From Brachionus manjavacas (taxonomy: Eukaryota; Rotifera; Eurotatoria; Ploima; Brachionidae), in contig JAHQIY010000007.1 of the NCBI GenBank assembly GCA_019054805.1, forward strand, positions 4,593,501 to 4,657,500: a DNA stretch of 64,000 nucleotides. The letters are read 5' to 3'. How positions within the stretch are numbered: position 1 is the stretch's first letter; every line of letters begins with the position of its first letter. The notes under the pieces were generated by a model, which had not been told where the DNA came from, did not search any database, and saw only the letters and a list, made by a program, of their open reading frames with translations. Made by a program: the position numbers and the translations under genes. Of this stretch, positions 4,939 through 60,200 are shown one piece after another.

Positions 4939-7715
4939 TTAGTAGTAGTAGTAGTAAAAAAAACCGCGGCATGAAATTGATCATGCGGAGCGCGTCAACA
5001 GTAGATGACGCCCTGTAGCGGTGGCGAGATGCTTGTCGAGATTGTTCTTGAATGAGTTGACTGTAGTTGAGTTGATGACTTCGTCTGGTAGGCCGTTCCA
5101 AAAGTTAACAATTCTATTATTGAAAAAATTGTGCCTTGGATTACATCATCTAACTATTTCACGCCTGAAAAGTCCTCTATGACCCCCTCGCGGCTCCGAG
5201 CATAGCGGTTTTGCGTACCAGTTTATGTGCTCTAAATTTGATTCAAGCTTAAATTTCTGTATTATGTCTCCGCGGATACGCCTTATTTTTAGTGTAGTTA
5301 GCCCTAATTTGCTGCATCGATCTTCGTAGTTTAAGCTTTTGAACTCATGTATGGTTTTCGTGGCTCTGTGTTGTACTTTTTCTAGCAATTTTATATCTTT
5401 CTGGGTGTATGGACTCCAGGCCGAGCTTGCAAATTCCAAGTGCGGTCTAATATAACATGTGTAAAGCTTTTTCCAGAGTTTTGCGTCTCTTAGGGTAAAA
5501 GCGTTCTTTAATGAGCTGAGTATAAAGTTTGCGTTAGCAGCGGCTTTACAGACTTGGTGTGATGGCTTAAGATCATTAGAGATAAAAATGCCGAGGTCTC
5601 TTTCGCTTGTAGTTTCAGTTATTCTAATGTTTGTATTTGAGCTGTGGTCTGACATTGTGTAGGTTGCTTTTGGGTTGTTTTTGCCGATGTCGTTGATGTA
5701 GATTACGAAGAGTGTAGGGCCGAGTACAGATCCTTGTGGTACACCGCTTAGTACCGGTAGCCAATCTGATTCGTGTTCGCCTAGAATTACTTTTTGCTTC
5801 CTGTTTTGTAAGAATGAGCGTATCCAGCATAGGAGTTTCGATTTGATGCCATATTGTTCAAGCTTGTATATAGCTTGTATGAGGCGAGCGTGTGTTACGG
5901 TGTCGAAAGCTTTGGCGAAATCGAGGAACAGAATGTCCAGCGGGTGATTCGAGGCTGATGCTTTTGTTGCGTAGTCCATTGTTTCTAAAAGATTAGTTAC
6001 GCATGCTTTTTTATTGACGAAGCCATGTTGATTTTCGGATATAAGCTTATTTTGTGACAAGAACGACATGATTTCTCTTTTATGTCAGTGAAATAGACCT
6101 GTAGTTCGATGGGTCGGTATTGTTGCCTTTTTCTAGGATTGGAGTTACTAATGATTCTCTCCATTTATCTGGAACACTTCCAGTGTCTAACGAGAGCTGG
6201 AAAATGCGTGTTAAGGGAAGGGCGAGCGTGTTTGCGCATTCTTTAAGTACGTGAGGATGGATACCGTCCGTGCCGATTGATTTATGGGGGTTTAGTTGGC
6301 TAAGAATCAGTATAACATCAGAGGCTGTTACTTTTATTGTGGAGATAGAGTTGGGTGTTCTCGAGGCGAAGACTGGCATTCCTTCGATTGTCTCCTCTTG
6401 AACGAATACGGAGTTAAAGTGTTGGTTTAAAATGTTCGCGATCGTGGTTTTGTCTTGTTGAGCAATTCCTTGTTCATCTTTCATTAAATTGATATGAGGT
6501 TTAACCTTTTGCTTGCTATTTAAGTTAGGATACAGTCGTTTCGGGTTGTTTTTGTCTGATGCTAGCTTGTATTCGTAGTTTCTAGTAGCCTCGCGAGTTT
6601 TTTTTTCTTCTTCAAGTTTTGCCTTAGTGTATTCGAGTTGTAGCTGACTATTTTTTCCACCTGGGGCTCGAACTTTGTTCCAGCTAGTTTTTTTTTCATT
6701 ATCAGTTGCTTTAGTTCTTGGTTCATCCACGGAACTTTTTTTCTAATGACTTTGTGGTGTTTTATTTTCGGAATAAAAGTGTCGCATGCTGAGTTATATA
6801 TCCTGATGAAAGAATTGTAGCAGCTGTTAACGTCCTGTTCAGTGAAAATTTTGTCCCAGTTGGCAGTTTCAAAGGCTTTGTTCAATTTGGCATACTCGCT
6901 CTGGTTATACTTGTACCTACAGCTTATAGAAACTTCTGATGTGCAAGTAGCAAGTTGGTACTCCCATGTTAGCGTTATGTGTGCTTGTTCTCGCGCTCCG
7001 AGGGGAGCAGAGTCGTTTACGTTGTGTATTCGATAGGGTGAGTCAGTGACAATGTAGTCGAGAGTGTTAGACAGACTTCCGTTGGCTTTGCGAAATGTAG
7101 GTTTGTTTACGTGCTGGTAGAGTGATTCGCTGTTTAGCAGGTCAATAAATTTGCTTCCTGGACTGTCCTCGTTCCCAAACACAGACACGGACCCGTCGTT
7201 GAGCCACTTTACGTAAGGGAAGTTGAAGTCCCCGGCGATAATTAATCCTGTGTTTTTCTTGTGGTGTACGGCTGATTTGGCGGCTCTCAAGGCTAAATTT
7301 ATTTCGTTGTCGACTAGGGAGTTAGCAGCGAAGTTATTTCCTGGTGGTGGGCGGTATATACAGCCTACGATTACAGTTTCCTTTTTCAAGTTGATTTGAC
7401 ACCAGAGTTGTTCTGATATTGAGCTATTATTTATGTTCGAAAGAACTTTGATAGTTGTGTTTGTGTGATTGAGATCGTTCCTGATGTATATTGCTACTCC
7501 GCCTCCGTAAGTAGGCCTGTCGTTTCTGTACACGTAGTAGTCAGCTAATGATGAGTTGGAGACGTTGGTAAACCAAGTTTCAGTGATAAGAATAACGTGC
7601 GGACGCTCTTGAGCGATTCGGCCCTCGAGTTCATTGATCTTAGATGTAAAAGTTAAAGCTTGGTTCGGGATTAATTTTGATATTTCCTTAATTAAGTGTT
7701 TGGAATTTTTTTCTT
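4939..7715 (-). mobile_element. Non-LTR retrotransposon (CR1/L2/Jockey group), broken copy
   Basis: Endonuclease plus reverse transcriptase pol read right to left. The endonuclease begins near 7700 and carries ITETWF, YGGGVAIYI, IYRPPPGNN, AGDFNFP and NTLDYI. The RT follows at 6650-5640, with SIGTDGIHPHVLK, NYRSISLT, FLDFAKAFD and SGVPQGSVLGPTLFVIYIND. The C-terminal tail (5640-4981) includes FFNNRIVNFWNGLPDEV. Damage: a frameshift near 6655, a deletion and frameshift near 6070-6080, loss of the YADD-containing segment near 5645, and an in-frame TGA near 5147. The 3' end on this strand finishes in a (TAC)n run (4940-4955). The copy is clearly GC-richer than its surroundings, so it is probably a fairly recent arrival. 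The 5' end is truncated and non-functional. Confidence 0.9.
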
Positions 7716-7937
7716 TAAAAAAATTATACTTTCAAAGAAAATGTTTATACTTTGTTAAATTTTTATATTCTCTTTCAAATTTTTTGATATAATATATATA
7801 TAAATTACTTTAAAAAATTCAACATGGTTGTATTTGACAAATAATCAAAACCCGTTCGCCATGTTAAAAGATATGTATATGAGAATGGGCGTTGTTAAGT
7901 CTTTTTCAATACTTCACATTTATTTTAAAAAATAAAT
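7716..7937. repeat. Short spacer with one arm of a 20-bp inverted repeat
   Basis: AT-rich sequence between the LINE 5' truncation point and the tandem repeat. Positions 7891-7910 are a perfect reverse complement of 7936-7955, the beginning of the first tandem unit, leaving a 25-nt loop. Confidence 0.75.
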
Positions 7938-11481: not shown

Positions 11482-13396
11482 ATGGTACTTTTAGCGGCGG
11501 CAATTTGCACCAAAAATGGAAAAGGTAGGAAATTTTTTAAGTCAAAATTAGAAGTTTTTTTTAATTTATGAATCCCAGCTCTTGTCTCTAGACAGTTCGT
11601 CGAAATGACCAGAGCTCGAATCGAGGGTCTCCTGGCCTCATTTCCCAAGCTAATAGGATCGGGAAGTAGGCAGCACACTTTTATTGAGACCGAGAGTGTC
11701 CGATATGTCTACCAACCTATGGATAAATTATACATGGTTCTGATTACGACCAAAGCCAGCAACATTCTCGAAGACTTGGAAACTCTCAGGCTTTTTTCCC
11801 GTGTTGTAAGATCATCTGCATTTTTAAATTAGTTTCACTCATAAAATTCCGTTAGATTCCGGAGTATTGTAAAACTGTTGAGGAAAAAGAAATAAATGAG
11901 CATTGCTTTGAACTTTTGTTTGCTTTTGATGAAATAGTGGCCTTAGGCTACCGAGAGAATGTTAATTTGGCACAAATAAGAACATTTACAGACATGGACT
12001 CGCATGAAGAAAAAGTCTACAAAGCAATGAGAGAGGTCTGAATTAAAACAAAAAAAAATTAAAATAATATTAAAATTGTGTTGATTGTTTGTAGACTCAA
12101 GAAAAAGAGGCCAAGCAAAAAATGCTGGAGCGAGCCGAAGAAATCCGCAAGTCAAAAATCCAGGCCGAGAAAGGCTTTAGCAAAGGCTCAAGTCAATATT
12201 CAGGTGGTTTTGGTTCTTCGTCAAGCATGTCCTCTAACACTTATTCAACATCAACACACGATACCCCATCATACGATTCTCACTCGTCTCACTATAGCTC
12301 CAATTTTTCTTCATCAACTTTGAATTCATCAAAACCTAACAAAGCCATGAAATTGGGCTCTAACAAAGATGTTCTTCCGGCTTTTATTGAACAGCAAATC
12401 AAGCAGACATTGCCATCCACCCAGCCCTCATCTTCTTCAGCATTTTCCTCTACTCCTGCTATAAACGCCGAAAAAGTCCATCTAAAAGCGGACGAAAAAA
12501 TTAATCTTACCTGCGGAAAAGATGGTGGCGTGCAAAACTTAGAAGTGCTGGGAGTTCTATCAGTGAGAATTACTAGTGAAGATGAAGCCCGGATTAAAAT
12601 TGGTCTTTTGAACAATGACACCAGAAACCTACAAATTCAAGTGGGATTTTTTTTTTTTAATAAATTTTTAGAAAATAATTTTTACTTAAAGACAAATCCG
12701 AATATTGACAAAAATTTATTCAAAAACAATTCAGTTATAGCTTTGAAAGATCAATCGAAAAGTTTTCCTATTGGAACCGATGTTGGTATACTTAAATGGA
12801 GATTCCAAACAAACGAGGAGTCAGAGATACCCCTTACAAGTATTCTAGACTACTTGGATTTGTGTTTAATTTAGATTTTGTTTTTAGTTAATTGTTGGCC
12901 TTCGGAGACCAGAAACGGTTGCGAAGTCAGTATTGAGTATGAGCTTCAAAAACTTAGTTTAGAATTAAACAATGTTTCCATTGTTATCCCTTTGCCGTAA
13001 GGAAAAATATTTTTTTTAATTTTTTTAAGAATTGATTTTTAAAAGGTCGAATCAAGCTCCTATTGTTAAAAATTGTGATGGAGACTTTCAGCATGAAAAG
13101 TACAAAAATTGCATCATATGGCGAATTCCGATGATCGATCAATCGAACTCGACTGGTTCTTTTGAGTTTACAGTAAATGGCCATGCAAATGAATTTTTCC
13201 CAATAAATGTAAATTTTGTTTCGCCAAAACCATACTGCGATATTCAGGTAATTTAAGTGAAATTAAAATTAAATTTTAATATTAAATTAAAATATTTGTG
13301 TAGCCTGACGCTGTGTCCCATGCAGATAATTCGTCTCAATCAATCAAATTTTCGGTTGAGAGCACATTTAGTGTTGATAGATATGAAATTGTTTAA
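11482..13396 (+). CDS. ARCN1: Coatomer subunit delta (delta-COP/archain)
   Basis: Subunit of the COPI coat for retrograde Golgi-to-ER transport; delta-COP pairs with beta-COP in the F-subcomplex. Exons read 11482-11524, 11579-11805, 11856-12035, 12095-12640, 12692-12839, 12888-12996, 13046-13247 and 13304-13396. All are GT...AG and in phase, giving 515 residues (animal orthologues are about 510). The N-terminal longin-type domain begins [14 protein letters not shown] and includes [48 protein letters not shown] and [11 protein letters not shown] Ser-rich linker (exon 4) follows. The mu-homology domain starts near [19 protein letters not shown] and includes [31 protein letters not shown] and the closing VDRYEIV. 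The start is the canonical MVLLAAA. Intron 5 (12641-12691) is 51 bp with no stop in frame, so the gene can be read through it. Confidence 0.96.
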
Positions 13397-24988: not shown

Positions 24989-26521
24989 TTAAAAAATCCA
25001 AAATAAAGCAAAAACGCTTAGATTAAATAAAAATGTACACTCCACAAACGAAGCCGAATTAAGATAGGTATTAAATCTTTTGCCACTTAGATCCCTCGAT
25101 CCGGCCTGTTGGGCCAAATTTTTATGAAACTTGTGGTGTCTGTGATTATAAATTTGAGATCTGTGTCTAATTGACTTGTCCTCACTCTGTTCCGAATGGG
25201 TCCTTACAGTCAAATTTCTTGACCACTGCGACCACTCGCTCATCTCATTTTTTACTCTCAAACGAACAGTGTAAGTCGAATTGGCCTGCAGCTTGGTCAA
25301 ATCAAAATAGTCTTTGTAGACTACATTTTCGTTATGATAAGTTGGAATCGACTCGGAGCCGTCTGATTGAACCTGTCTTGTTTTTGTCACCAAATTGGTA
25401 GCATTGGTGCCATTGGAACCGAAAACTTGGACATTCAGCTCTTGAATCGGTGATCCCGAGTACACAGACCATTCAAATACGGCTGCATCACTGTAAATCG
25501 GTAGTTTGTCTCCGGTAAGACTCACATCCGAAGTCGAACCGGTCACTTTTACTTCTGCCACACTACTTCCCAATTCATTTTCAGCAATGCATTTGTAAAC
25601 TCCATAATTGTCCTCACCACCACTAAACCTATATTTCAAAGTGTACTGGTGTTGGTCAGGCTGGGTCTGTTCAAAAGAATAGCTTGACTCCGACAATGGA
25701 ACATCATTGTGCATTAGGGTGATCTTTGGCTCCGGATAAGACTTGACAATACATCTAAAGTGTTCCTTTTTGTCAACCGCTGAATACATCACACTTTGGT
25801 GTATATTAACTTGGCTCGCAAATGTGACTCTGGGTCTGAATTTCACCAAAACCTGAAATTCACTGGTCACCGGATTTCCAACTTCATTTTTAGCAATGCA
25901 TCGATAAGTGTCCGAATGGGTCTGATCCACACTGCCCAGAGTCAGTGTGTGCTTCAACTCATCTATTATAGTGTGTCCCGGTTTGACTCCTGTTTTGCTC
26001 CATGTCAATGAAGGCTTCGGGTTGCCGTGAGTGATGCATTGAATTGTGATGGAATCGCCCTCATCTAAAGTGATCACATCACTGCTTGGAATCCGAGTGA
26101 TAGTCGGCGGAACCAGGACATCAAGATTGTACTCCAAATTTTTGGTTTCTTTGGATATTATTTGGCACCTGTAAAGGCCTTTGTGAGAGGTGTCTATGGA
26201 CTTGATTCTGAGGTTAAATTTGGTCTCAGAATCAGTGACTAGTTGCAAGTTTGAGTCCGGCACCAGGACCCGGTCATTTAGTGATATCAGTTGATTTTCG
26301 TGCAGCCAAGCGACTGAAATTGAGTCCTTGTTTTGCACATAGCACTCGAACTCGACTGATTTTTCCACTTGGGCGCGCTTGTTCAGGTCATAATTGAACT
26401 GTTCGAGATCAAAGCACGGTTCGGTAGTTTGAGCGTGCGAGTTTTGCTGACAAATGTCGCTGCTGGTCACTGCACATGCCATCAGCGCAGAGATGATGAG
26501 AATTTTTTGTAAAATTTTCAT
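24989..26521 (-). CDS. Secreted/GPI-anchored protein with three Ig domains and one FN3 (Klingon/Wrapper-like)
   Basis: Cell-surface adhesion or recognition protein of 510 residues in a single exon. Signal peptide: residues 1-20 (MKILQKILIISALMACAVTS). Ig1 about 40-137, with FECYV and GLYRCQI. Ig2 about 140-227, with ITIQCITHGNPKPSLTW and DTYRCIAKNEVG. Ig3 about 230-328, with HFRCIVKSYPEPKI and GVYKCIAENELGSS. FN3 about 335-440, ending MSEWSQWSRNLTVRT and so containing WSxWS. A His/Arg-rich spacer follows, then a C-terminal hydrophobic run (CTFLFNLSVFALFWIF) with no charged tail, typical of a GPI-attachment signal. Several N-glycosylation sequons lie in the FN3 (NGT, NAT, NST, NLT). The 3 Ig + 1 FN3 + GPI architecture is that of insect Klingon and Wrapper; orthology is inference. 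It is intronless, unlike its neighbours, and flanked by long gene-poor DNA. Confidence 0.9.
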   Translation of the reverse strand: MKILQKILIISALMACAVTSSDICQQNSHAQTTEPCFDLEQFNYDLNKRAQVEKSVEFECYVQNKDSISVAWLHENQLISLNDRVLVPDSNLQLVTDSETKFNLRIKSIDTSHKGLYRCQIISKETKNLEYNLDVLVPPTITRIPSSDVITLDEGDSITIQCITHGNPKPSLTWSKTGVKPGHTIIDELKHTLTLGSVDQTHSDTYRCIAKNEVGNPVTSEFQVLVKFRPRVTFASQVNIHQSVMYSAVDKKEHFRCIVKSYPEPKITLMHNDVPLSESSYSFEQTQPDQHQYTLKYRFSGGEDNYGVYKCIAENELGSSVAEVKVTGSTSDVSLTGDKLPIYSDAAVFEWSVYSGSPIQELNVQVFGSNGTNATNLVTKTRQVQSDGSESIPTYHNENVVYKDYFDLTKLQANSTYTVRLRVKNEMSEWSQWSRNLTVRTHSEQSEDKSIRHRSQIYNHRHHKFHKNLAQQAGSRDLSGKRFNTYLNSASFVECTFLFNLSVFALFWIF

Positions 26522-27339
26522 TTTAATTTCTATCTAAATTGAAATAAAATGTTGAAAAATATTCAGGTGTTTATTGTTTGGTTTGGGCAAAAGGATATTG
26601 ACTTAGCGAGTCTTAAAATCAGAATGATTAGTTCCAGCTAGGTTTATACGGATCTTGGAATTATTGATTTTTAATCGAAAAATTTATTGGCTATTGTTTT
26701 AAATAGCTCCAGTCTAGATTTTGATTGATCGATGAGCATTTAGATGGCATGTGGCGAAGCAGAGTTTTGCAGAATTTTTAGTGTTTTTTTTTTTTTTAAA
26801 TGACAATTTCTCAATTAAATATTAAAATTAAACATTTTAATTAGAGTTAGTTTATTTTTTAATCAAAATTCCGAGAATAGTATTCCTAATAAAATTTGTA
26901 TACTCAATTGTTTACTGTTTAGCATCGTGTCGGCTAAATTCCAAAATCGTTTTTAAATTGCGGCCCTATGAGTTAAATTACATTTATTTTTCATTTTCCC
27001 AATATTCTCTTTTTAAAATAGAAAAAAAAAAAGAAAAAATTGTTTATTTACTCAACTCAAAATTTACATTCAAATCTCTAAAAAAATAAACATTTTTATT
27101 TTGGTTGGACTCGGATTAAAGAAATTTCAATTTTGCGCTAGATAAAATCTTGATTGAAAAACCTGCTTTGATTAATTGAATTTTAATCCGCTTTTTTTTT
27201 ACTACTCTAATCTCTTATCTTAGCAAATTTTTAGTTTACTAAATTTGATATTAGATACTCTCAAGTTTATTGTCTCTTCTAATCATAAGCTCATAAAATT
27301 AATATTTTCTTTTATGTTCTAGTTAAGGTTTAAATTGGA
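26522..27339. other. Upstream region of the Ig gene
   Basis: AT-rich. It presumably contains the promoter, but no specific element was identified. Confidence 0.3.
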
Positions 27340-41254: not shown

Positions 41255-41470
41255 CGGTAAAGCGGGAATTTGCAATGATAGAGGGGAACTCTGGTCAATA
41301 GTAATTTGGGTGGCAGTTTCCACAGCAGGATCCAAGCTTTCAATAAAGCTGTCTAGTGGGTGTTGTTCGATTTGTTTTGTTTTTTCTCCATTATCTCCGT
41401 CGAAAGGATAGGAGAGTTCTGAAATGCCATCGTTTAAATTGTTAATAAAGCGAGTAATTATTAATTTTCG
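41255..41470 (-). other. Unassigned open reading frame fragment, no start codon
   Basis: Read from about 41470 downward, one frame stays open for about 70 codons. It reads ITRFINNLNDGISELSYPFD, then ESLDPAVETATQITIDQSSP, ending QIPALPKK and a stop. Composition is GC-richer and protein-like. It abuts the RT fragment on the other strand. It may be a piece of a retroelement protein or an exon remnant; no family was recognised. Confidence 0.35.
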
Positions 41471-42170
41471 TTGATTTTGGCGAACAATGCTAAACCATCT
41501 GGACTCGAAATAAATGGGACCAAAACGTTAGTTATGTGCATTAACACCAAATTGGATACTCCGATCACCATCGATGGTATGCAAATCAAGTGTGTAAGTG
41601 AATTTACATACTTAGGAAGCATCATCAGTAAAGCGCTGGGAACACACAGAGACATTCAGAGTAGACTTGCCAAAGCAAAAAGTGCCTTTGCTAGACTCCG
41701 ACCAGCATGGAAATCAAACAGCTACAGCAAGGAAACAAAACTTAAACTATACAACAGTGTAGTAAAAGCAACACTGATGTTCGAAAGTGAACGTTGGGGA
41801 ATGTGTGAATTTGACAGGAAAAGCCTTAACACCTTCCACACTGGAAGCCTGCGGAGAATTCTCGGGATACACTGGTCTAAGACATTCTGACCTTTACAGA
41901 AGAACAAATTCAGAGGCATTAAGTCAGTGCATTATAAATAAAAGACTGCGATGGCTTGGCCATGTACTAAGAATCAAAGAAACACGGATACCAAAAAGAG
42001 CCCTTCAATGGACACCTCAAAGGCGTCTTAAGGTAGGATCGGTATATCAGGTTTAGAAATTGGCATAGCATATAAGGATTTAGCTGATATAATGTAGCCT
42101 TATAAACTGCGTTCACACAGGTTCGCCTGTGTCACAGCTTTCAATACTACTACAATACTACTACTACTAC
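41471..42170 (+). mobile_element. Non-LTR retrotransposon 3' fragment (RTE-like)
   Basis: The RT thumb and C-terminal region reads EINGTKTLVM, CVSEFTYLGSIISKALGTHR and SYSKETKLKLYNSVVKATLM. After a frameshift near 41870 it continues DLYRRTNSEALSQC, NKRLRWLGHVLRI and RIPKRALQWTPQ, a C-terminal block I associate with RTE-type elements. The 3'UTR contains a perfect 7-bp hairpin with a TTCG loop (42115-42132) and finishes in TAC repeats (42144-42170). It is 5'-truncated and frameshifted. Confidence 0.8.
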
Positions 42171-42231: not shown

Positions 42232-44860
42232 TTAGAGAGTTCTATAATGTTTTAATTTTAAATTGAAAAGACATAGCGAAATTGAATCAGATATACCATC
42301 ATTACAAATCGGATTAATCTTAAGATTTTCTTTAAGTTGGTTTATATTTACTGTAATTTTTGAGGTTTCAATTTTAAAGTACTTGGAAATAAGAACCAAG
42401 TCGGAGGAAAAAGATTTATTAGAGGGGGGGTTATTTAGCATATATTTTAAAAATTGTGATGATAAATAATTATATTTAATTGTATCAATAAAAGTTAGTT
42501 TTGAAAATAGATAAAGTTCATCAAATTTGAATACTTTCAGTACTTTTAAGACTCGTGACATGTGACAGTAGGCTTTTAAACCAAACATTTTAATTAAGCT
42601 GTTTTGTAATATATTTATTGAATCCTTTGTGTTCGAATTAAGAGTGAGGGCCTCAAGACCATATGTGAATTTAGAAAAGCAATAGGTTTGTATATAAATG
42701 ATTTGAATTTAGGTGAAGAGGTAGGACTATTTTTAGGCAGAAAATACGAGATTCCAAAAAAACTGCTCTGAACTTTTTTAAATTTATAACTGCCTGTGAG
42801 TTAAGGTCAAGATTAGAATCTATGATGAAGCCTAAGTATTTTAACTGATTTGCTTCTTTAAGTTCGGATCCATTAAAGTGAAATAAAGACTTAAATAATT
42901 GAATGCCAAAGTTAACAACTTTTGTTTTATTAGGGTTAAATTTTATTCTCCATTTATTCCCATAAGACCCACAAATATCCAAAAGCATCTGTAGATGGGA
43001 GTCAACTGAGCTTATTAAGATTATATCATCTGCGTAGAAAATGATAGAAACATTAAGATTTTTATAAAAAGCTCCAAGCTCATTGTTTAGGCATTCTATT
43101 ATAAGATCATCAATATATATGTTAAAAAGAAATCAAGATAAAATGCCTCCTTGATTTACACCAGTTTCAATTTTAAAGGGTTTTGTTGTTAGATTATTTG
43201 GAAGAGATAAAACAGCTAGTGCTGAGTTATAATAAATCCTAAGCAATACCCAGTAGGAAGTATGCAGTCTCTTTAATAATTTATATAGAATAATAAAATT
43301 ATAGATTTCATCGCCAATATTGGCGTTTATTTTTTTGAAATAATAATAATAATAATAATAATAAAATTATAGAATAAGCCATCACGCCATATTTTGTCAA
43401 AGGCCTTTTCTGCATCTAAAGATGCTATCCTTCATCCAGAGCCTTTATTGATGTAGTTAAGAATTGTTTCTTTCAATACAAAAATGGCATGGTTACATGA
43501 GGTTTTTTTTCTAAAACCAAATTGGTTATTACTAACTTTATAAAGCTCGAAGAGTTAATTAGAATTAGTTTTTCTAGGATTTGAGCAAAGTAGTTTAAAA
43601 TAGAAATAGGTCTTATATTGTTTAGATCATAGCTGTTTTTCATGTTGTCTTTTAGAATAGGATTAATTTTTGAAGTATTAAAATTTTTTGGGATCTTATT
43701 TAAAAGTAGAAGTTGGTTGAAGAATTCAAGTAGAATTTCATGAAAACCAACAAAATTAACATTTTTTAAAGGGTTATAGGATATTTTGTCAAAGCCAGTT
43801 ACTTTTGAGTTATCAAGCTCTGATATCATTTTCTTTAGTTGAGACAGCTCAAAAAAAGGCAGAGTATCAGGACGAGTGTAATTCACAAATGCTTCATTCA
43901 CCTGTTTTTTTTATATAGTTAATCACTTGAGAGAGTAGATTCATTCTCTTAGAGTAAATTTAATAAGTGAGAAAAGAGTTTATCCGGTGGGAGGGTTTTT
44001 TCTTTTCTTACATTTCTTTTATTTTAGACTGTGCAAGCCTTTTCCAAAATCTATTTCTATCTTTTAAAGAGAAAAGATTTTCTATTTTTGCTTGCTCTTT
44101 TAGCATTCAAATACTTTAGCTATTTCAAATTTTAGTCTGGGTTAGACTTGAGGCTTAACAAATAAAGAATCAATCTCACAGTAGAGATTTTCATAAGTAA
44201 CATCCAATTTAAGGGCGAGGTGATCACTTAGATTTCCCAAGTCACTTATTATGTTACATTGAATAGATTTTAAGATATTCCCATGATCTGAGACTAATAT
44301 ATGGTCAAGATGAGCATTATATGGTGGAGAATTTTTTTTATGCTTTGTATAGGTATACGGAGTAAATTATGTGTTTAATGAGTCCAGTAGGACCAGGTCA
44401 TTATCATTAATAAAATGTTTATAGTAGAGTATCTATCTAATTTTTGGCAAGTGATCCTGAAAGGATCTGCATTGAAGTCACCTATAATGAACATTGGAAT
44501 ATTATTATCTTTATAAAATTTCATGTGAGCTATTTAGATTGATAGAGAAATCCTATATAAAGCTATCGAATTAGCCTTATGCTTGCTTTTATAAAAGGGC
44601 ATATAAACCCCAAAAATTACAAATTCTTGACCCTTGATTTTTAAATGAACATAGCTCGAATGTCTATTAAAAAAGCCACTATCAATTAAATCACAAGAGT
44701 CATCAAGAAACCAACATTGGCCACCATAAGGTCGCCTTGAAGATTTACCTAAAAAATCGGGCATATCTGACTTATAGAGTGGAGTATTTTTATGAAACTT
44801 AAATGAAGCTAAATCTTTTATAATATGAAATTCATTTTTTTTTGGTCCATAATTCATTGA
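42232..44860 (-). mobile_element. Decayed Jockey-type LINE
   Basis: Read leftward. Endonuclease pieces at 44857-44450 carry RRPYGGQCWFL, FVIFGVYMPFYKSKHK and FIIGDFNADPF. RT pieces at 43901-43473 carry NSKVTGFDKISYNPLKN and NNIRPISILNYFAQILEKLI. The catalytic FYADDIIL is at about 43030, then KWRIKFNPNKTKVVNF and LKYLGFIIDSNLDL at 42988-42671. The C-terminal tail is at 42588-42232. Frames are separated by many stops and shifts, and an (AAT)n microsatellite lies at about 43343-43365. An old, non-functional copy. Confidence 0.85.
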
Positions 44861-47140: not shown

Positions 47141-47411
47141 ATTACAAAAATTTTAGTTTTAGTGTGACAAATTTATATAAAAAATCGATCATATTAATTG
47201 ATTAATTTATCAAAATTACATATGTTGATTTGATACTCAATGTATTAAATTAGATACTTATCAATTAGTTTAGATATTGATTAAATAAATTAGGTGCCAA
47301 TAAAATAAAATAGATATTATCAAAATTAGATACTAAATTAATTAAAATTAGGTACTGAATTAAATAGTAGCCTTATTTAACTTGATTATTTTTTTGCTAA
47401 AAATTTTCAAA

Positions 47412-49526
47412 CAACTGTGGTTGTAATGTAACAAATCAAAACGGAAAAATTCTTGAAAGTCCTAAAATGCTATTAATTAACGACGAAACGCCAACATATA
47501 CTTCAAGGAGTCATTGCTATTCATCAGTCTTAGATCTTTTTATTCTCTCTAGTAATTTAGGATCATCTTTAAATTCTTTCTTTGTTATGGACGATGACTT
47601 AACAAGCGATCATTTTCCAATTTTTCTCTCTTTGGACTTTTCCGTTCTCAAAATTGATCAGAATAAAAAAGTTAAATTTAATTACGAAAAAGCAGATTGG
47701 GATCTATTTAAGAGAAAATTAAATCGGTACTGTCCGGATCTCGAAACTGAAAATGACAATATAGACAAAATTAATACTGAGATAACCTCACTCATTTTGA
47801 AGGCAGCCTACGGTTCAATTCCAAGATTCTCAAACAAGAAATTTAAAAAATCCTGCCCAAAACATATTCTTGAAATTGTCTTAGAGTGGAAAAAGCTTAA
47901 GAGACTAATCCAAAGGGACCACTTCAGTATTAATAGCCTTTCTCTAAAAAAAGAGTGTAATATTCTGACTAATAGATTTCGCTTTGAGCAAGAAAAGATA
48001 GAAAATGAAAATATGGACAAATTTGTAAGCAAATTAGGACATCATCCTTGCTCGTCTAGGCCTTTTTGGAAAAAAATAAATAAAGTTAGAACTAATATTT
48101 CAAATTCCCAAATTCCAAACCTTATCTATGTAAATAAAGAATACAAATCTGACGAAGAAAAGCCTAATCTTTTTAAAGTTCTCTTGATGAAAACTTTCTC
48201 GTCTGATGATTTAAGCATCTCAGATCGAAGTCACGCTCAATTCATTGACCTATTTATTCAAAGTAAGCAATATTTATCCCTTTATCCTCAATCTAACAAT
48301 ACTTTCCCAAAAATAGAGATTGCTGAAATTAAAAAAACCTTAAAAATCTTAAAAAATGAATCAGCGCCTGGCCCGGACATGATTAGTTACAAAATGTTAA
48401 AAAACCTCCCAGATTCCTTTCTCCGAAAAATTTTAAAATTTTTTAACTATTGTCTTTTAACAGCGACCTTACCTTTAGAATGGAAAGTCTCAAAAATAAC
48501 CATGATTCCAAAAAAGAAAGTTTCAAACGACCCATTAAAATATCGTCCAATTAGTGTCACCAGCTGTCTTGGTAAACTCTTAGAGCGAATAGTTCGGAAT
48601 AGGCTTTACAAATTCCTTGAAGAAAATAACCTGATCTGTGCCGAACAATCTGGTTTTCGTTCTCGAAGACGTACAACAGATAACCTTATTTTTATGACTC
48701 AAAAAATCTCTGAATCTCTTAATAGGAAAAAAAGGTTTGTTCTCTTTTTTTTGATATCTCCCAAGCTTTTGATAAAACCTGGCATAACGGTATCCTATAT
48801 AAAATGTCCCTGCTTAAAGTTCCTCTCTATATCCTTGAGTGGGTTAAGCATTTTTTACAAAATAGGAAATTTTTTGTAAGTGTAAATAATTTTTGTACTA
48901 ATCAGGGTTGTATTTTTACAGGTGTTCCTCAGGGTGCTGTTATTAGCCCAATACTCTTTACCCTCTTTATAAACGACATTCCTAAAGTAAATTCAAAAAA
49001 TAAGAACTATTCTCTTCTTTTTGCGGATGACCTTGTATCTTTTTTTATCTTTAAAAAATATGGAAATATTCCCAATACAATAAATAATTACCTTAAAAAA
49101 ATAGAAGAATGGCTTATAAAATGGAAAATGAAGATGGCCCCTGAAAAATGTAGCTATACCATATTCTCTGGGAACTCTTCTAAATATCAACCTTTAAATA
49201 TTAAAATTTTTAAGAAAACCATTCCTTATGATAAAAATCCTGTTTTTTTAGGAATAACTTTTGATGAAAGTTTATGCTTTAATGCTCATGTAAATTTTGT
49301 TCGTTCTCGATGTGCTGATCGTATTAATATTTTAAAAGTGTTGTCCCGTAAATCATGGAAATTAAACCCTCATACTCTAGTTACAATATACAAGTCCCTT
49401 ATCGGTTCAATCATTGATTATAGTTTTTTTACTCCTATCCTAATCTCAGATACAAATTTTTCCCGTATCCAAACTATTCAAAATGTCTCAATTAAATCAA
49501 TTTATAAATTTAAGTTTCCATATTAA
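47412..49526 (+). mobile_element. Jockey-type LINE, near-intact RT with one frameshift, both ends truncated
   Basis: Begins within the end of the endonuclease domain (NCGCNVTNQNGKILESP, then SVLDLFILSSNLGSSL and LTSDHFPIFLSL). RT follows: ESAPGPDMISYKMLKNLP, YRPISVTSCLGKLLERIV and SGFRSRRRTTDNLIF. A single-base shift in the T run near 48750 follows. The frame then resumes with DISQAFDKTWHNGILYKMSL, GVPQGAVISPILFTLFINDI and the catalytic LLFADDLVSF, then MKMAPEKCSYTIFSG and PVFLGITFDESLCF. It ends at 49526 in KFKFPY, short of a normal C-terminus. Apart from the one indel the RT is open for over 680 codons, so it is a young relic. Confidence 0.9.
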
Positions 49527-49953
49527 ACTTAAATTTTTCAAAATTGCAGACGTATTGCTATTACAAAAATTCATTAATTCTATGTATTAAAAAGGACTTG
49601 TTTTTAACTCAAAAGTTAAAGTTGAATTAAAATTTTAACTTTTAACAAAGTTTTTAACTCAAACTATTTTTACCAAACACGACCACAACCAGCCAAATTT
49701 TTGATGTTCTAATTTAACACAGTAAGACAAATTAAAGATTTGATTTAAGAAAAAAATAATCATTGTCTTGACTTGTGAATCGTTAATCGGTCTTTAATGA
49801 CAAGGGCACTAGCCTTTTGATTAACCATGAAATTACAAAAAAAAATATTAACTATCATTGAGATTTTCATGCAAAAATAAAAAATTTTATTAATTCTAAA
49901 AATAATATAAAAACTATAATTCTTTAAGATTTTTAAAATATAGAAAAATAAAT
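49527..49953. other. Intergenic, no gene seen
   Basis: AT-rich spacer between the LINE and the cysteine-rich peptide gene. Confidence 0.4.
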
Positions 49954-50323
49954 TTATTCTACAACATTTAATCTTTCAAAATATTTTTCTAATTGCCTTC
50001 CTCTAATGCCACCACAAGAACAAATACGACCACATGGAGTTAACACTCTGTTGACTTGACAATACCTTTTTCTCGCATAGCAATATCCACCTAAAAAAAT
50101 TTTAATTTTCAATTCGTAATTTATTAGAAAATGTTTATGAAAAAAACTTAATTCTACACCAAAGTCTAGCTATCTTTTAATAAAGAATTTAATAAAGTTA
50201 TAAACCATTTCGGCTGCATCCACTATCTTGACATCCCCAGCCAGTACTCCAGCAAAGTCCATTTACTTCATCAAATATTTCCAATATCAAGAATAAATAA
50301 AAAATTAATGCGATGATCCTCAT
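49954..50323 (-). CDS. Small secreted peptide with eight cysteines, two exons
   Basis: Exon 1 is 50323-50206 and exon 2 is 50090-49954, joined over a 115-bp intron (donor GTTTAT, acceptor TTTTTTTAG, phase 1). The product has 84 residues. Residues 1-21 form a signal peptide (MRIIALIFYLFLILEIFDEV, then N), probably cleaved around 21-23. The mature part has cysteines at 24, 31, 36, 43, 50, 59, 63 and 65, spacing C-x6-C-x4-C-x6-C-x6-C-x8-C-x3-C-x-C. It has a basic middle (YARKRYC) and a C-terminal extension GGIRGRQLEKYFERLNVVE. This is the layout of a disulfide-stabilised extracellular peptide (defence, inhibitor or signalling type), but I do not recognise the family. The stop codon overlaps an AATAAA poly(A) signal (49957-49952). 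GC content is above the flanks. The neighbours are transposons. Confidence 0.72.
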
Positions 50324-52229: not shown

Positions 52230-53070
52230 CAACATTTATACAGCACGAATTAATTTCTTTGTCTACATCAATACCTTGGAAAACAATCTTTTATCATTTG
52301 TTAAACTTCTATTTGAGCCAAATGGCCTTGGATTTTTCAACAAGATGGCACTTCCGCACATTCCACTCACTCATTCATGGATGCCAAAATACTAAAGTAA
52401 CCACTTTTGACTGAGCATTTAAAATTAGTGTTGGATAAGGTCAAGACAAACCAGTCAAATACACGGACGGTTTTTTGCGGTCATTTTGCCGGTCAGCTAG
52501 GCGGTCTATTTTTTGGACTGCCAAAATATACGGGCGGCCAAAAAAACCGGTCTAAAAAATACGGACGGCCAAAAATACGGCCAAATTTTTGGCGGTTAGC
52601 TACTTAAATTTATATTTTTTCAAAATAATGTTTTTAATTTTAAAAAAAATAAATAATTAAAATGATAAAAAAAATAAAAAAAATTTTCTTTATTTATTTT
52701 AAAAAGTTTTTTAAGATTTTTTTTTTATTTTTCAAAATTTTACAAAAAATTTTGTTGAAAAGTTGGCCGCCCGTATATTTTAGACCGTTTATTTTGGCGG
52801 TCTAAAAAATAGACCGCCTAGCTAACCGGCCAAATGACCGCCCGCTTAAAGGTTGTCCGGCTAATGCGGACACGGTCACGGTTTCTGAAAATTTTGGCCG
52901 GTTAAGTGTCCGCTTGTACGAATCCCAACTCGTTTTAAAATGGGTTTTACAGAAAGAGTGGTTAAAGATTCCGACTGAGTACGTACAAAATTGATTTAAT
53001 TTTTGTCAAAAGAGTTTTAGCTTGTTATAGCGCCAAAGGCGATCATTTCAAATATTAAATTGTAAAACTT
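52230..53070 (+). pseudogene. Mariner-family transposase relic, copy 2, interrupted by a MITE
   Basis: LSTSIPWKTIFYHLLNFYLS matches the 21.9-kb relic. Next is DFQQDGTSAHSTHSFMDAKI, which holds the second catalytic Asp region (FQQDG.saH). The MITE at 52426-52933 interrupts it, after which the frame resumes with KIPTEYVQN and an SFSLL tail that also matches the other copy. Stops are present, so it is non-functional. Confidence 0.75.
52426..52933. mobile_element. hAT-type MITE, 508 bp, nested in the mariner relic
   Basis: Flanked by an exact 8-bp direct repeat TTTAAAAT (52418-52425 and 52934-52941), the target-duplication size of hAT elements. The ends are TAGTGTTGGAT... and, reversed, ACGAGTTGGGAT..., so the left end fits the hAT YAGNG tip. 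Long imperfect inverted arms follow, with GGCGGTCTATTTTTTGGACT on the left mirrored by GGCGGTCTAAAAAATAGACC on the right. They include many CGG/CCG-rich blocks (GCGGTCATTT, CGGGCGGCC). The interior is AT-rich and non-coding. Confidence 0.82.
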
Positions 53071-57238: not shown

Positions 57239-60200
57239 TTAAGATTTGATGAGCTTCTTGAGATCTTCTAGCTCTGATTTCATTGTTTTTAAATTTTTGA
57301 CCCTTGAGTCAAAGTAATCTCTAGTCTTTGTTATATGCACAATAACTCTTGAGCCAGTGCCCGTATAGTTCATATATACCGAAAAATCTTTTTTAATTCC
57401 AGAATAAGAACTAATAAATCTTCTTGCTTGAGCAACACCATTTAAAACGCCACTGTAGACCATTTTCATATCATCACTCTTTAAAAACTGTTCAAATCGT
57501 GGATGTCCATGAATAGTTGCATTCATTCTCCAGCTGAATTCGAGACTTGGTCGAATTTGCGCTTCAAGAAAATTGATCCGCATTTGAATTAGGGACAAAA
57601 CGGATGGCGAAACTTTGTAAAATTCAAAATTATTATTAATTGTTTGCACGAAATTCTTTATGCTATCTCCAGACAAGTTCATATCGGTAAGCATCTGAAT
57701 CAGCTTTTTTAGATATTCCTCAAAATCTGGCCTTTTAAACAAGAGCAAAGTGTCCGAAATGGCAAAAAAATGATTTTCCAATGTATCACAGTAAAGACTG
57801 GTCAATCTCTTAAAATAATTAACATCATCAAAGATTGGTAGTAAAAATTTTTCACAGAACTTTAATGCCAGCTCAAACTGATTTAATTCAATCATTATCT
57901 AAAAGTAATCGAATTTTATTACAGTAGATAAACCCCGGGTGCGGATTAAAAAACAAATAAAAAAAATTAAATTGAACAAAACAAAACATCAAATAAATAT
58001 TTTTAATTTGCATTCTTAATTTTTTAAATTTAAATTTTATTTTTTTTATGTGTTTTTGACTCTTTTTGAATTAAAAAATTTGAATTTAGATCTATAAAAT
58101 GAAAATGATAATTAAAAAATGCCTAAAAACTTTTAAAAGCCAGATATTAGTGACAATTAATAATAAATAAAACTCAGAATCCATTTTTCATTAAAATTAT
58201 TGACTAAATATTTTATCTTATTTTTTTATCTTTTTGGTATACGAAAATTGATCAATGCAATTTTCATATTTCAAAAAATTCATTTTATACATTTTTCATC
58301 ATTTTGAATTAATGGATTTCTTTTTGTATGTGAATCACATTTTTCATGAATTTTAATCTATTTTTATTTGTTTTTTATGCTTGCCCAAATGCCCAAAGAC
58401 TTACTTTTACTAGTTTACTGGTGGAAAATATATAATTTTGTTGATTTAGCAAAGAACCAAACGAATCTTCAAGTTCATTCCATCCAAAAGTGAGAATGAG
58501 ATACACAAAACCCTTCAGCAGCCCATCACCAATTCGTGGTAATTTACTGAAAAATAATTTTACCAATGGCAAGTCACCAGTTTTGGGTAATAGTTTTAAA
58601 ATAGTAACTAAAGACGAGTCTAGAATCATTTTATCGCGGCTAAGTTGCATCACGCACTTTCTTAGTTTTTCAGTAAAAGACTCAATAGGCATCGAATCAT
58701 AGGCAGTACCCAAGTACTCTATGGCGAAACTTAGATTCGCTTTACAATACAGTTCGAATTGATGAGTTTTAGGCATCAAAATCATCAAGTATCTATTGTA
58801 GACGGTAGTTCTATTAAGGCCCTCATTGCCTGTATAACCATCAATCTCATCATGCATATCCTTTTTTCCAAAAGTTTTCTCATGTCTAAAATCATCATCG
58901 AGTAGTACATGATGTCTGTTTACATCAATTACATAGTCAAAAATGCGAGAGCTGAAGCTCACTTTATTCAAATTGGCTTTGAGCTTGCCATCTGAGTCAT
59001 ACCATTCCTTTATCTCGGTAAAGCGTTCATTTTCTTCCCATTCATAATCCGAAGCATTATATTCATTATATCCATAGCTTTCACTGTAGTTACCACTTAC
59101 ATCGTAGGTCTCAACTGTTAAACATGCATGAACCAGATTAAAGTCAAATTTCTCTTCATCCTTTAATTTCTGATTTGCATAATGCAACATATTGTATCGG
59201 TCATTATCAATGCCTTTGAGTGCCCCAATACCATTCTGCTGAAAAGATCTAGGCGTATATCGGTGTTCGAGCATAATACCGATTATTTTATCTTTATTTT
59301 TTAGTTTATCCAATGCCTGATGCAAGCCATGGTCTTCACTATTGAAAGTACAAATACCATTACCATTAATCCAGCAAAGTGAATAGACCAGTGCGAGGCG
59401 ATATCCACTAGTTATTTCGGTTAATTCATGCTCAGCGTCAGCGTAATGGCCAGCATAGTGAATTGCAAAAGCTGCATTATTGCTACTTTTACCAAAGTCG
59501 TGTATGGTTGTACTTTTATCAGGATTGTGTATGACTAAATCACCGCCTGTGTGAATACTTGGCAATTGTAAAACTAGCGTGGCGAACATGTTTTGGTCTT
59601 TTTCTGTATCACGGTGCTTTTTGAAGTGTCCACCGGTTTTGTACAGCAAAAGCTTGTAAAGCTTGGCCTCAGCTTTACCCCTGCAGCCCAGTTGAGTGCA
59701 CACTCTGTCCACTAGTTCTTGGAGCTTTGATGACCAATCGGGATTTTTAATTTCGATGGAGGATGGTTCGAGTTGGTACGAGTCACGTACTTCTGTGTTA
59801 ACCAAAGTGTCAAAGTTATGACCATAAGGAGCTTGGACGCATTTTTTGATAAGTTCTTCTGCTTGAAGAGCATTTATTGGCAACGATACATCACCGAAAT
59901 TTTTAATGTGCAAGCCTAGCATAGTGGGCAGTTCGCCTGCTTCACCGCTTGCTGAATATTGACCTGAAGGTGGCGCTTTTGAAAGAGCTTCTTTGAGAAT
60001 TTCGATTCCATCCGGGTACTCGGTTTCATCTGCAGATTTTAGAAGAAAAAATTTGGTGATTGTGAAAAAAATATTTTATTTTAAACCTTTTTTAAATTTT
60101 TTAAATGATTTAGGGTCAGCTACTGATGATGAGATGTGAACAATGCTATTTTCTTTGTTGCTGGAATCACTTTCTTCGTTTGATTCTTCATCGGACATTT

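Follow-up and report, generated by a model that had tools for sequence, protein, structure and literature searches.

A candidate small family of secreted eight-cysteine peptides in the rotifer Brachionus manjavacas, with a possible role in host defence

The 64,000-nucleotide stretch of the Brachionus manjavacas genome analysed here (the window; C7:4593501-4657500 in an assembly of 114 Mb and 61 contigs) carries on its minus strand a short two-exon gene, gene A, in which 50323-50206 spliced to 50090-49954 is translated into 84 residues followed by a stop codon. Exon 1 (50206..50323) encodes the start codon, a hydrophobic stretch and Cys1-Cys3 and ends in phase 1; exon 2 (49954..50090) encodes Cys4-Cys8, the motif P-C-G-x2-C-x-C, a tail and the stop, and both exons have counterparts in three further loci, B, C and D, described below. 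The phase-1 intron between Cys3 and Cys4 (50091..50205, 115 bp) starts with GTTTAT, ends in TTTTTTTAG and has GT-AG borders. Translation agrees with the splice model that an earlier note had proposed for this DNA (two exons joined at 50090/50206 across a 115-bp intron, 84 residues), and our recount of the eight cysteines gave the spacing x6-x4-x6-x6-x8-x3-x1, identical to the one reported there. The N-terminus is hydrophobic (peak 11-residue Kyte-Doolittle mean 3.2, residues 3-13). Residues 1-22 (50258..50323, minus strand) form a putative signal peptide, judged from hydropathy and from the I-D-G found in the same place in C and D, and cleavage probably occurs after ...VNG. On the same strand an AATAAA read from the sequence at 49958-49953 (49953..49958) overlaps the stop codon, as the earlier note had it, and is a possible polyadenylation signal; a second AATAAA, 3' of the stop at 49886..49891, could serve as an alternative.

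What is left of a non-LTR retrotransposon occupies 47401-49526 (+), where two frames that overlap each other match RVT_1; it ends about 430 bp from the stop codon of gene A, which is on the opposite strand. Further reverse-transcriptase-like frames, judged by eye from their translations, lie at 5146-7731 (-), 41465-41890 (+) and 42232-43910 (-). Terminal inverted repeats at 52477-52841, with 57-nt arms that are 91% complementary and 251 nt between them, suggest a short non-autonomous DNA element. Protein-coding frames include a cytochrome P450 (15177-17291, minus strand; PF00067, E 2.8e-45) encoded by one open frame of 704 residues whose middle is unusually long, an immunoglobulin-domain protein with three I-set stretches that is secreted or at the surface (24989-26533, minus strand), and a large frame at 58375-60075 (-) whose 2OG-Fe(II) oxygenase match falls just below the Pfam cut-off (26.7 vs 27 bits). 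An exon at 12095-12874 (+) matches the adaptor medium subunit (PF00928, E 9.8e-12) and presumably belongs to coatomer delta. The G+C content of the window, in 2-kb steps, is 20-38%; a passage of PMC11954553 gives 24.95-31.14% for monogonont rotifers.

A scan of the window looked for spliced products of 60-120 residues that have an ATG and a hydrophobic N-terminus, contain a single GT-AG intron (about 40-150 bp) and carry eight or more cysteines beyond residue 20. A single product was returned, that of gene A, and none was present in 30 windows simulated from the first-order base transitions of this window. Searching the genome with A identified locus B on contig C7 at 2.898 Mb, as two adjacent matches (E 4.7e-5 and 8.4e-4), and locus C on contig C18 at 0.877 Mb (E 0.076, weak on its own); exon 2 of B as the query identified locus D on contig C28 at 0.603 Mb (E 0.006). 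A match on contig C37 (E 0.147) lacks such cysteines, and the full D product matched D alone. The family therefore comprises at least four loci, a lower bound because the genome search scores no more than its top candidates and every query overlooked some of the loci. Because related loci exist elsewhere in the genome, a chance origin of gene A is untenable.

At C and at D the DNA reads as a complete gene of two exons, from start codon to stop. In both, the hydrophobic N-terminus ends in I-D-G, Cys1-Cys3 lie in exon 1 and Cys4-Cys8 in exon 2, and a phase-1 intron of 48 bp (C) or 49 bp (D) occupies the same place as in A. The cysteine spacing of C is exactly that of A; D has longer loops (x10, x9, x6, x7, x11, x3, x1). 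The splice acceptor of C is purine-rich (AAAAAAAG), which calls for caution over where exactly it is spliced. Locus B (C7:2896806-2899934, minus strand) keeps the cysteine-bearing exon stretches, with the start codon and the cysteines out of frame with each other and an acceptor-like AG that breaks the frame, and we left its pieces unspliced in the analysis. On sequence, B looks broken, either as a pseudogene or through assembly errors. The suggestion that gene A might be one of a larger family is thus borne out by C and D, in which all eight cysteines and the phase-1 intron are preserved, and by the cysteine-bearing stretches of B. As paralogues within one genome, these loci stand in for the sister-species homologues that the note had named as a test.

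In pattern searches of the DNA, P-C-G-x2-C-x-C occurs at seven places in the genome, namely the four loci, an EGF-repeat protein and two stop-ridden repeat copies (a control pattern occurs at nine), and three of the 15 places with P-C-x3-C-S-C are A, B and C. A looser cysteine pattern gave 122 places vs 69 for its control; from those of the 122 that were listed, 30 were taken as loci. Among 83 loci, D not being one of them, a strict search for the exon 2 spacing picked out A, B and C alone, and D would fail so strict a pattern. Among 35 pattern stretches in viral_contigs there was no relative, and the sole match among 34 in genome_contigs is 10 residues long, in a betaproteobacterial bin, and its frame does not continue the peptide. 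At C14:984213-984641 cysteine-pattern matches recur mostly every 30 bp, in a tandem repeat whose units might be translated as C-G-G-T-C-T-C or similar. Other observations on the assembly are the 5' end of 18S rRNA, present at four places on contig C10 (about 7.7-84 kb, both orientations) and once, with two mismatches, at C9:3778777, and a cluster of class A receptors (7tm_1) on contig C4, with at least eight places within about 180 kb (about 8.15-8.33 Mb). The 18S rRNA sequence resembles that of Brachionus, and assembly size and G+C suit a monogonont rotifer.

Single pairwise comparisons of the spliced products give E 1e-15 for A against C (26 identities in 79 aligned residues) and E 7e-10 for A against D (27 identities in 74 columns). 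When residues were shuffled with the cysteines fixed, in no pairing of A, C and D did any of 1000 shuffles score as high as the real sequences (z 4.7-7.8); therefore these three products have more in common than their cysteine pattern. At the DNA level the best local match between A and B is in exon 1 and that between B and C in exon 2, and several cysteine codons differ synonymously among the loci. Between A and C the best match falls outside the exons, in AT-rich DNA, indicating that these two are too distant for DNA comparison. That gene A is no gene, but a chance open frame or a mere decayed relic, is hardly credible: its relative B does look broken, whereas C and D read intact with an identical architecture and the same intron place and phase, and neither the simulated windows nor the shuffles yielded anything comparable. 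The related loci together with these controls rule out the chance component of that reading, and gene A very probably belongs to a real gene family, one that is small and possibly lineage-restricted.

Common to A, C and D are the hydrophobic N-terminus, the phase-1 intron between Cys3 and Cys4, the eight cysteines and P-C-G-x2-C-x-C, and the framework of the family can be written C-x(6,10)-C-x(4,9)-C-x6-C-x(6,7)-C-x(8,11)-C-x3-C-x-C. An aromatic residue follows Cys1 and another precedes Cys5 in all four loci, and the alignment shows a conserved G at the intron boundary. The segment from Cys4 to Cys8 contains five, six, five and three K/R in A, B, C and D and none, none, none and one D/E, which agrees with the basic middle segment that had been described for A. 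From residue 23 onward the products are net basic (K/R vs D/E 10/4 in A, 11/3 in C and 11/6 in D). The likely secretion of the gene A product, also proposed earlier, is in keeping with its hydrophobic N-terminus and with those of C and D.

Some of these features would also suit a signalling role, in which a small secreted ligand rich in disulfides acts on a receptor. The products are compact and would be secreted, the tails of A, B and D are basic and carry R-G-R or R-G-G-R, and the copies are few and of one conserved architecture. However, no hormone or growth-factor family of Pfam is matched, and loops and non-cysteine residues differ strongly among the copies, a variability that ligands show less often; we regard such a function as fairly unlikely.

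Searches of family databases placed the peptides nowhere. Pfam scans of A, C, D and the pieces of B, up to E 10, gave only matches far below cut-off, and NCBIfam, searched with A only, gave none. Sequence searches of the PDB reached at best E 0.19 with A and 0.74 and 0.92 with two profiles, with no credible relative. We took as chance the sub-threshold Pfam matches to Tesmin CXC (E 7.1 and 2.2 for A, 0.22 for C) and, for D, to DUF3005 (E 0.23), as well as the PDB matches to Hrip2 (E 0.19 and 0.74) and, for the profile including D, to Hd1a (E 0.92) and BIRC6 (E 1.4). Our search of one open-licence library found no paper describing such a peptide family in rotifers. Inhibitor families are likewise missing from the Pfam matches up to E 10. 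A protease inhibitor with a disulfide-bound reactive loop would be a compact cysteine-rich secreted peptide of this kind, with variable loops, the longest here lying between Cys5 and Cys6 (x8 or x11), but the alignment has no evident conserved reactive-site residue, and this function appears distinctly unlikely.

Several known cysteine-rich systems resemble the family in part. We aligned A, C and D with hydramacin (sequence confirmed against PDB 2k35), hevein (confirmed against PDB 1hev) and an LDL-receptor class A (LDLa) repeat, and compared each score with those of 1000 cysteine-fixed shuffles of each peptide. Of these three look-alikes hydramacin is the nearest, with 124, 181 and 125 of the 1000 shuffles of A, C and D reaching the real score, which is not above chance. 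The macins, such as hydramacin-1 and theromacin, are cationic and secreted like the family, and hydramacin-1 also has eight cysteines; shared as well are C-x6-C with an aromatic after the first cysteine, loops of x6 then x8, and a C-x-C near the end. Unlike macins, the family lacks the C-x3-C helix pair in the macin place and the long loop after Cys2, and has an extra C-x3-C ahead of the C-x-C. Macin (PF14865) is absent from the Pfam scans of A, C, D and the B pieces up to E 10, and its one match in the genome, on contig C1, is below cut-off and coincides with none of the four loci, although the exon-by-exon reading used may miss split domains.

Peptides of the CS-alpha-beta type (defensins, ABF, mytilins) share with the family a complement of six to ten cysteines and a final C-x-C, and in A, B and D also a GXC ahead of the basic hairpin. 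Their cysteine-stabilised helix has C-x3-C spacing and is paired with the C-x-C. This helix feature is absent from A, B, C and D, where the corresponding pair is spaced x4 (A, B, C) or x9 (D) instead of x3; the ending carries an extra C-x3-C-x-C, and the sole C-x3-C shares a cysteine with the final C-x-C. In the cysteine array given in part of PMC5116183, the CS-alpha-beta cysteines are C3, C4, C8 and C9, and the same part of that source assigns the fourth disulfide of macins to C1-C7. The gamma-core, defined as GXC-x3-9-C in a passage of PMC6062912, is usual in CS-alpha-beta peptides, not obligatory. In A, B and D a corresponding GXC-x(3,9)-C begins at Cys4, whereas C has none; since 41-60% of cysteine-fixed shuffles contain one somewhere, the motif is weak evidence.

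The hevein domain (PF00187) has in common with the family a C-x4-C, an aromatic residue before a cysteine and a C-x3-C near the end. The hevein core is C-x4,5-C-C-S-x2-G-x-C-G; it is absent from A, C and D, which lack the CC pair and have an extra terminal cysteine. The scores of the real alignments to hevein were reached by 338, 757 and 667 of 1000 shuffles of A, C and D, again not above chance, and Chitin_bind_1 (PF00187) has no match in the genome, the exon-by-exon reading being one that may miss split domains. A chitin- or glycan-binding peptide acting like hevein, for example in the cuticle, egg shell or gut lining, could account for the aromatics that all four loci have beside Cys1 and ahead of Cys5, and for the short resemblance in spacing; in view of the shuffles, the empty genome search and the missing CC pair, we consider it improbable.

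LDLa repeats share the start C-x6-C-x4-C-x6-C with the family, and A has C-Q-D-x2-C in common with LDL-receptor repeat 1 (repeat sequence confirmed in the PDB). Such repeats carry acidic calcium-binding residues between their later cysteines. The family, which has two cysteines more, lacks an acidic calcium site, the few D/E counted above lying in a segment that is basic. The real LDLa score was reached by 831 (A), 915 (C) and 807 (D) of 1000 shuffles and does not exceed chance. The Pfam scans likewise gave no match of A, C, D or the B pieces to the hevein, LDLa or CS-alpha-beta families. Judged by their sequences and on the features tested, A, C and D are not members of the macin, hevein, LDLa or CS-alpha-beta families, and they may still work in a similar way. 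The Pfam and PDB searches, the shuffles and the CS-alpha-beta spacing all agree with the earlier note, which could place the spacing in no defensin or macin pattern.

A single-sequence structure model of exon 2 alone has two strands, at residues 2-12 and 15-26. Overall confidence is low, at a mean pLDDT of 64 and a pTM of 0.32; for the first 20 residues the block means are 71 and 87. This model fits a basic beta hairpin, which we infer for exon 2, and is silent on disulfides; the eight cysteines presumably pair into four of them.

Host defence by acting on microbial surfaces is a common role of compact, cationic, cysteine-rich peptides secreted by invertebrates. The N-terminal hydropathy of 3.0-3.2 corresponds to the secretion signal of that class, with cleavage predicted, and the predicted mature parts of A, C and D appear cationic and cysteine-rich, as is typical of it. 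Our best explanation is that the loci encode secreted disulfide-rich cationic peptides and that these act in host defence, a joint claim whose chances we put at slightly less than even. The folded peptide would be released onto the body surface, into the gut or into the body fluid, where the basic hairpin and the conserved aromatics could bind negatively charged microbial surfaces, and it might then damage or clump microbes, by analogy with other cationic cysteine-rich host-defence peptides. Speaking for such a function are the K/R-rich segment from Cys4 to Cys8, the net basic charge from residue 23 onward, the hairpin model of exon 2 and, weakly, the GXC-x(3,9)-C of A, B and D. The joint explanation is weakened by the low confidence of the exon 2 model, the broken look of B, the purine-rich acceptor of C and the finding of only four loci, fewer than in many defence-peptide families.

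Small spliced cysteine-rich genes tend to be missed by automatic annotation; such families are a main source of antimicrobial peptides and ligands, and orphan cysteine-rich families are common among invertebrates. Little is known about the peptide defences of rotifers, and part of PMC7203481 states that big defensins are absent from rotifer genomes. More tentatively, the peptides could represent a new four-disulfide host-defence family, distinct in its cysteine framework and perhaps also in its fold, that is confined to rotifers or part of them and there takes the place of known defensin types. The peptide of gene A is small enough to be synthesised and assayed, and the signature of the family, a phase-1 intron between Cys3 and Cys4, P-C-G-x2-C-x-C and eight cysteines, can be used as a search pattern on other genomes.
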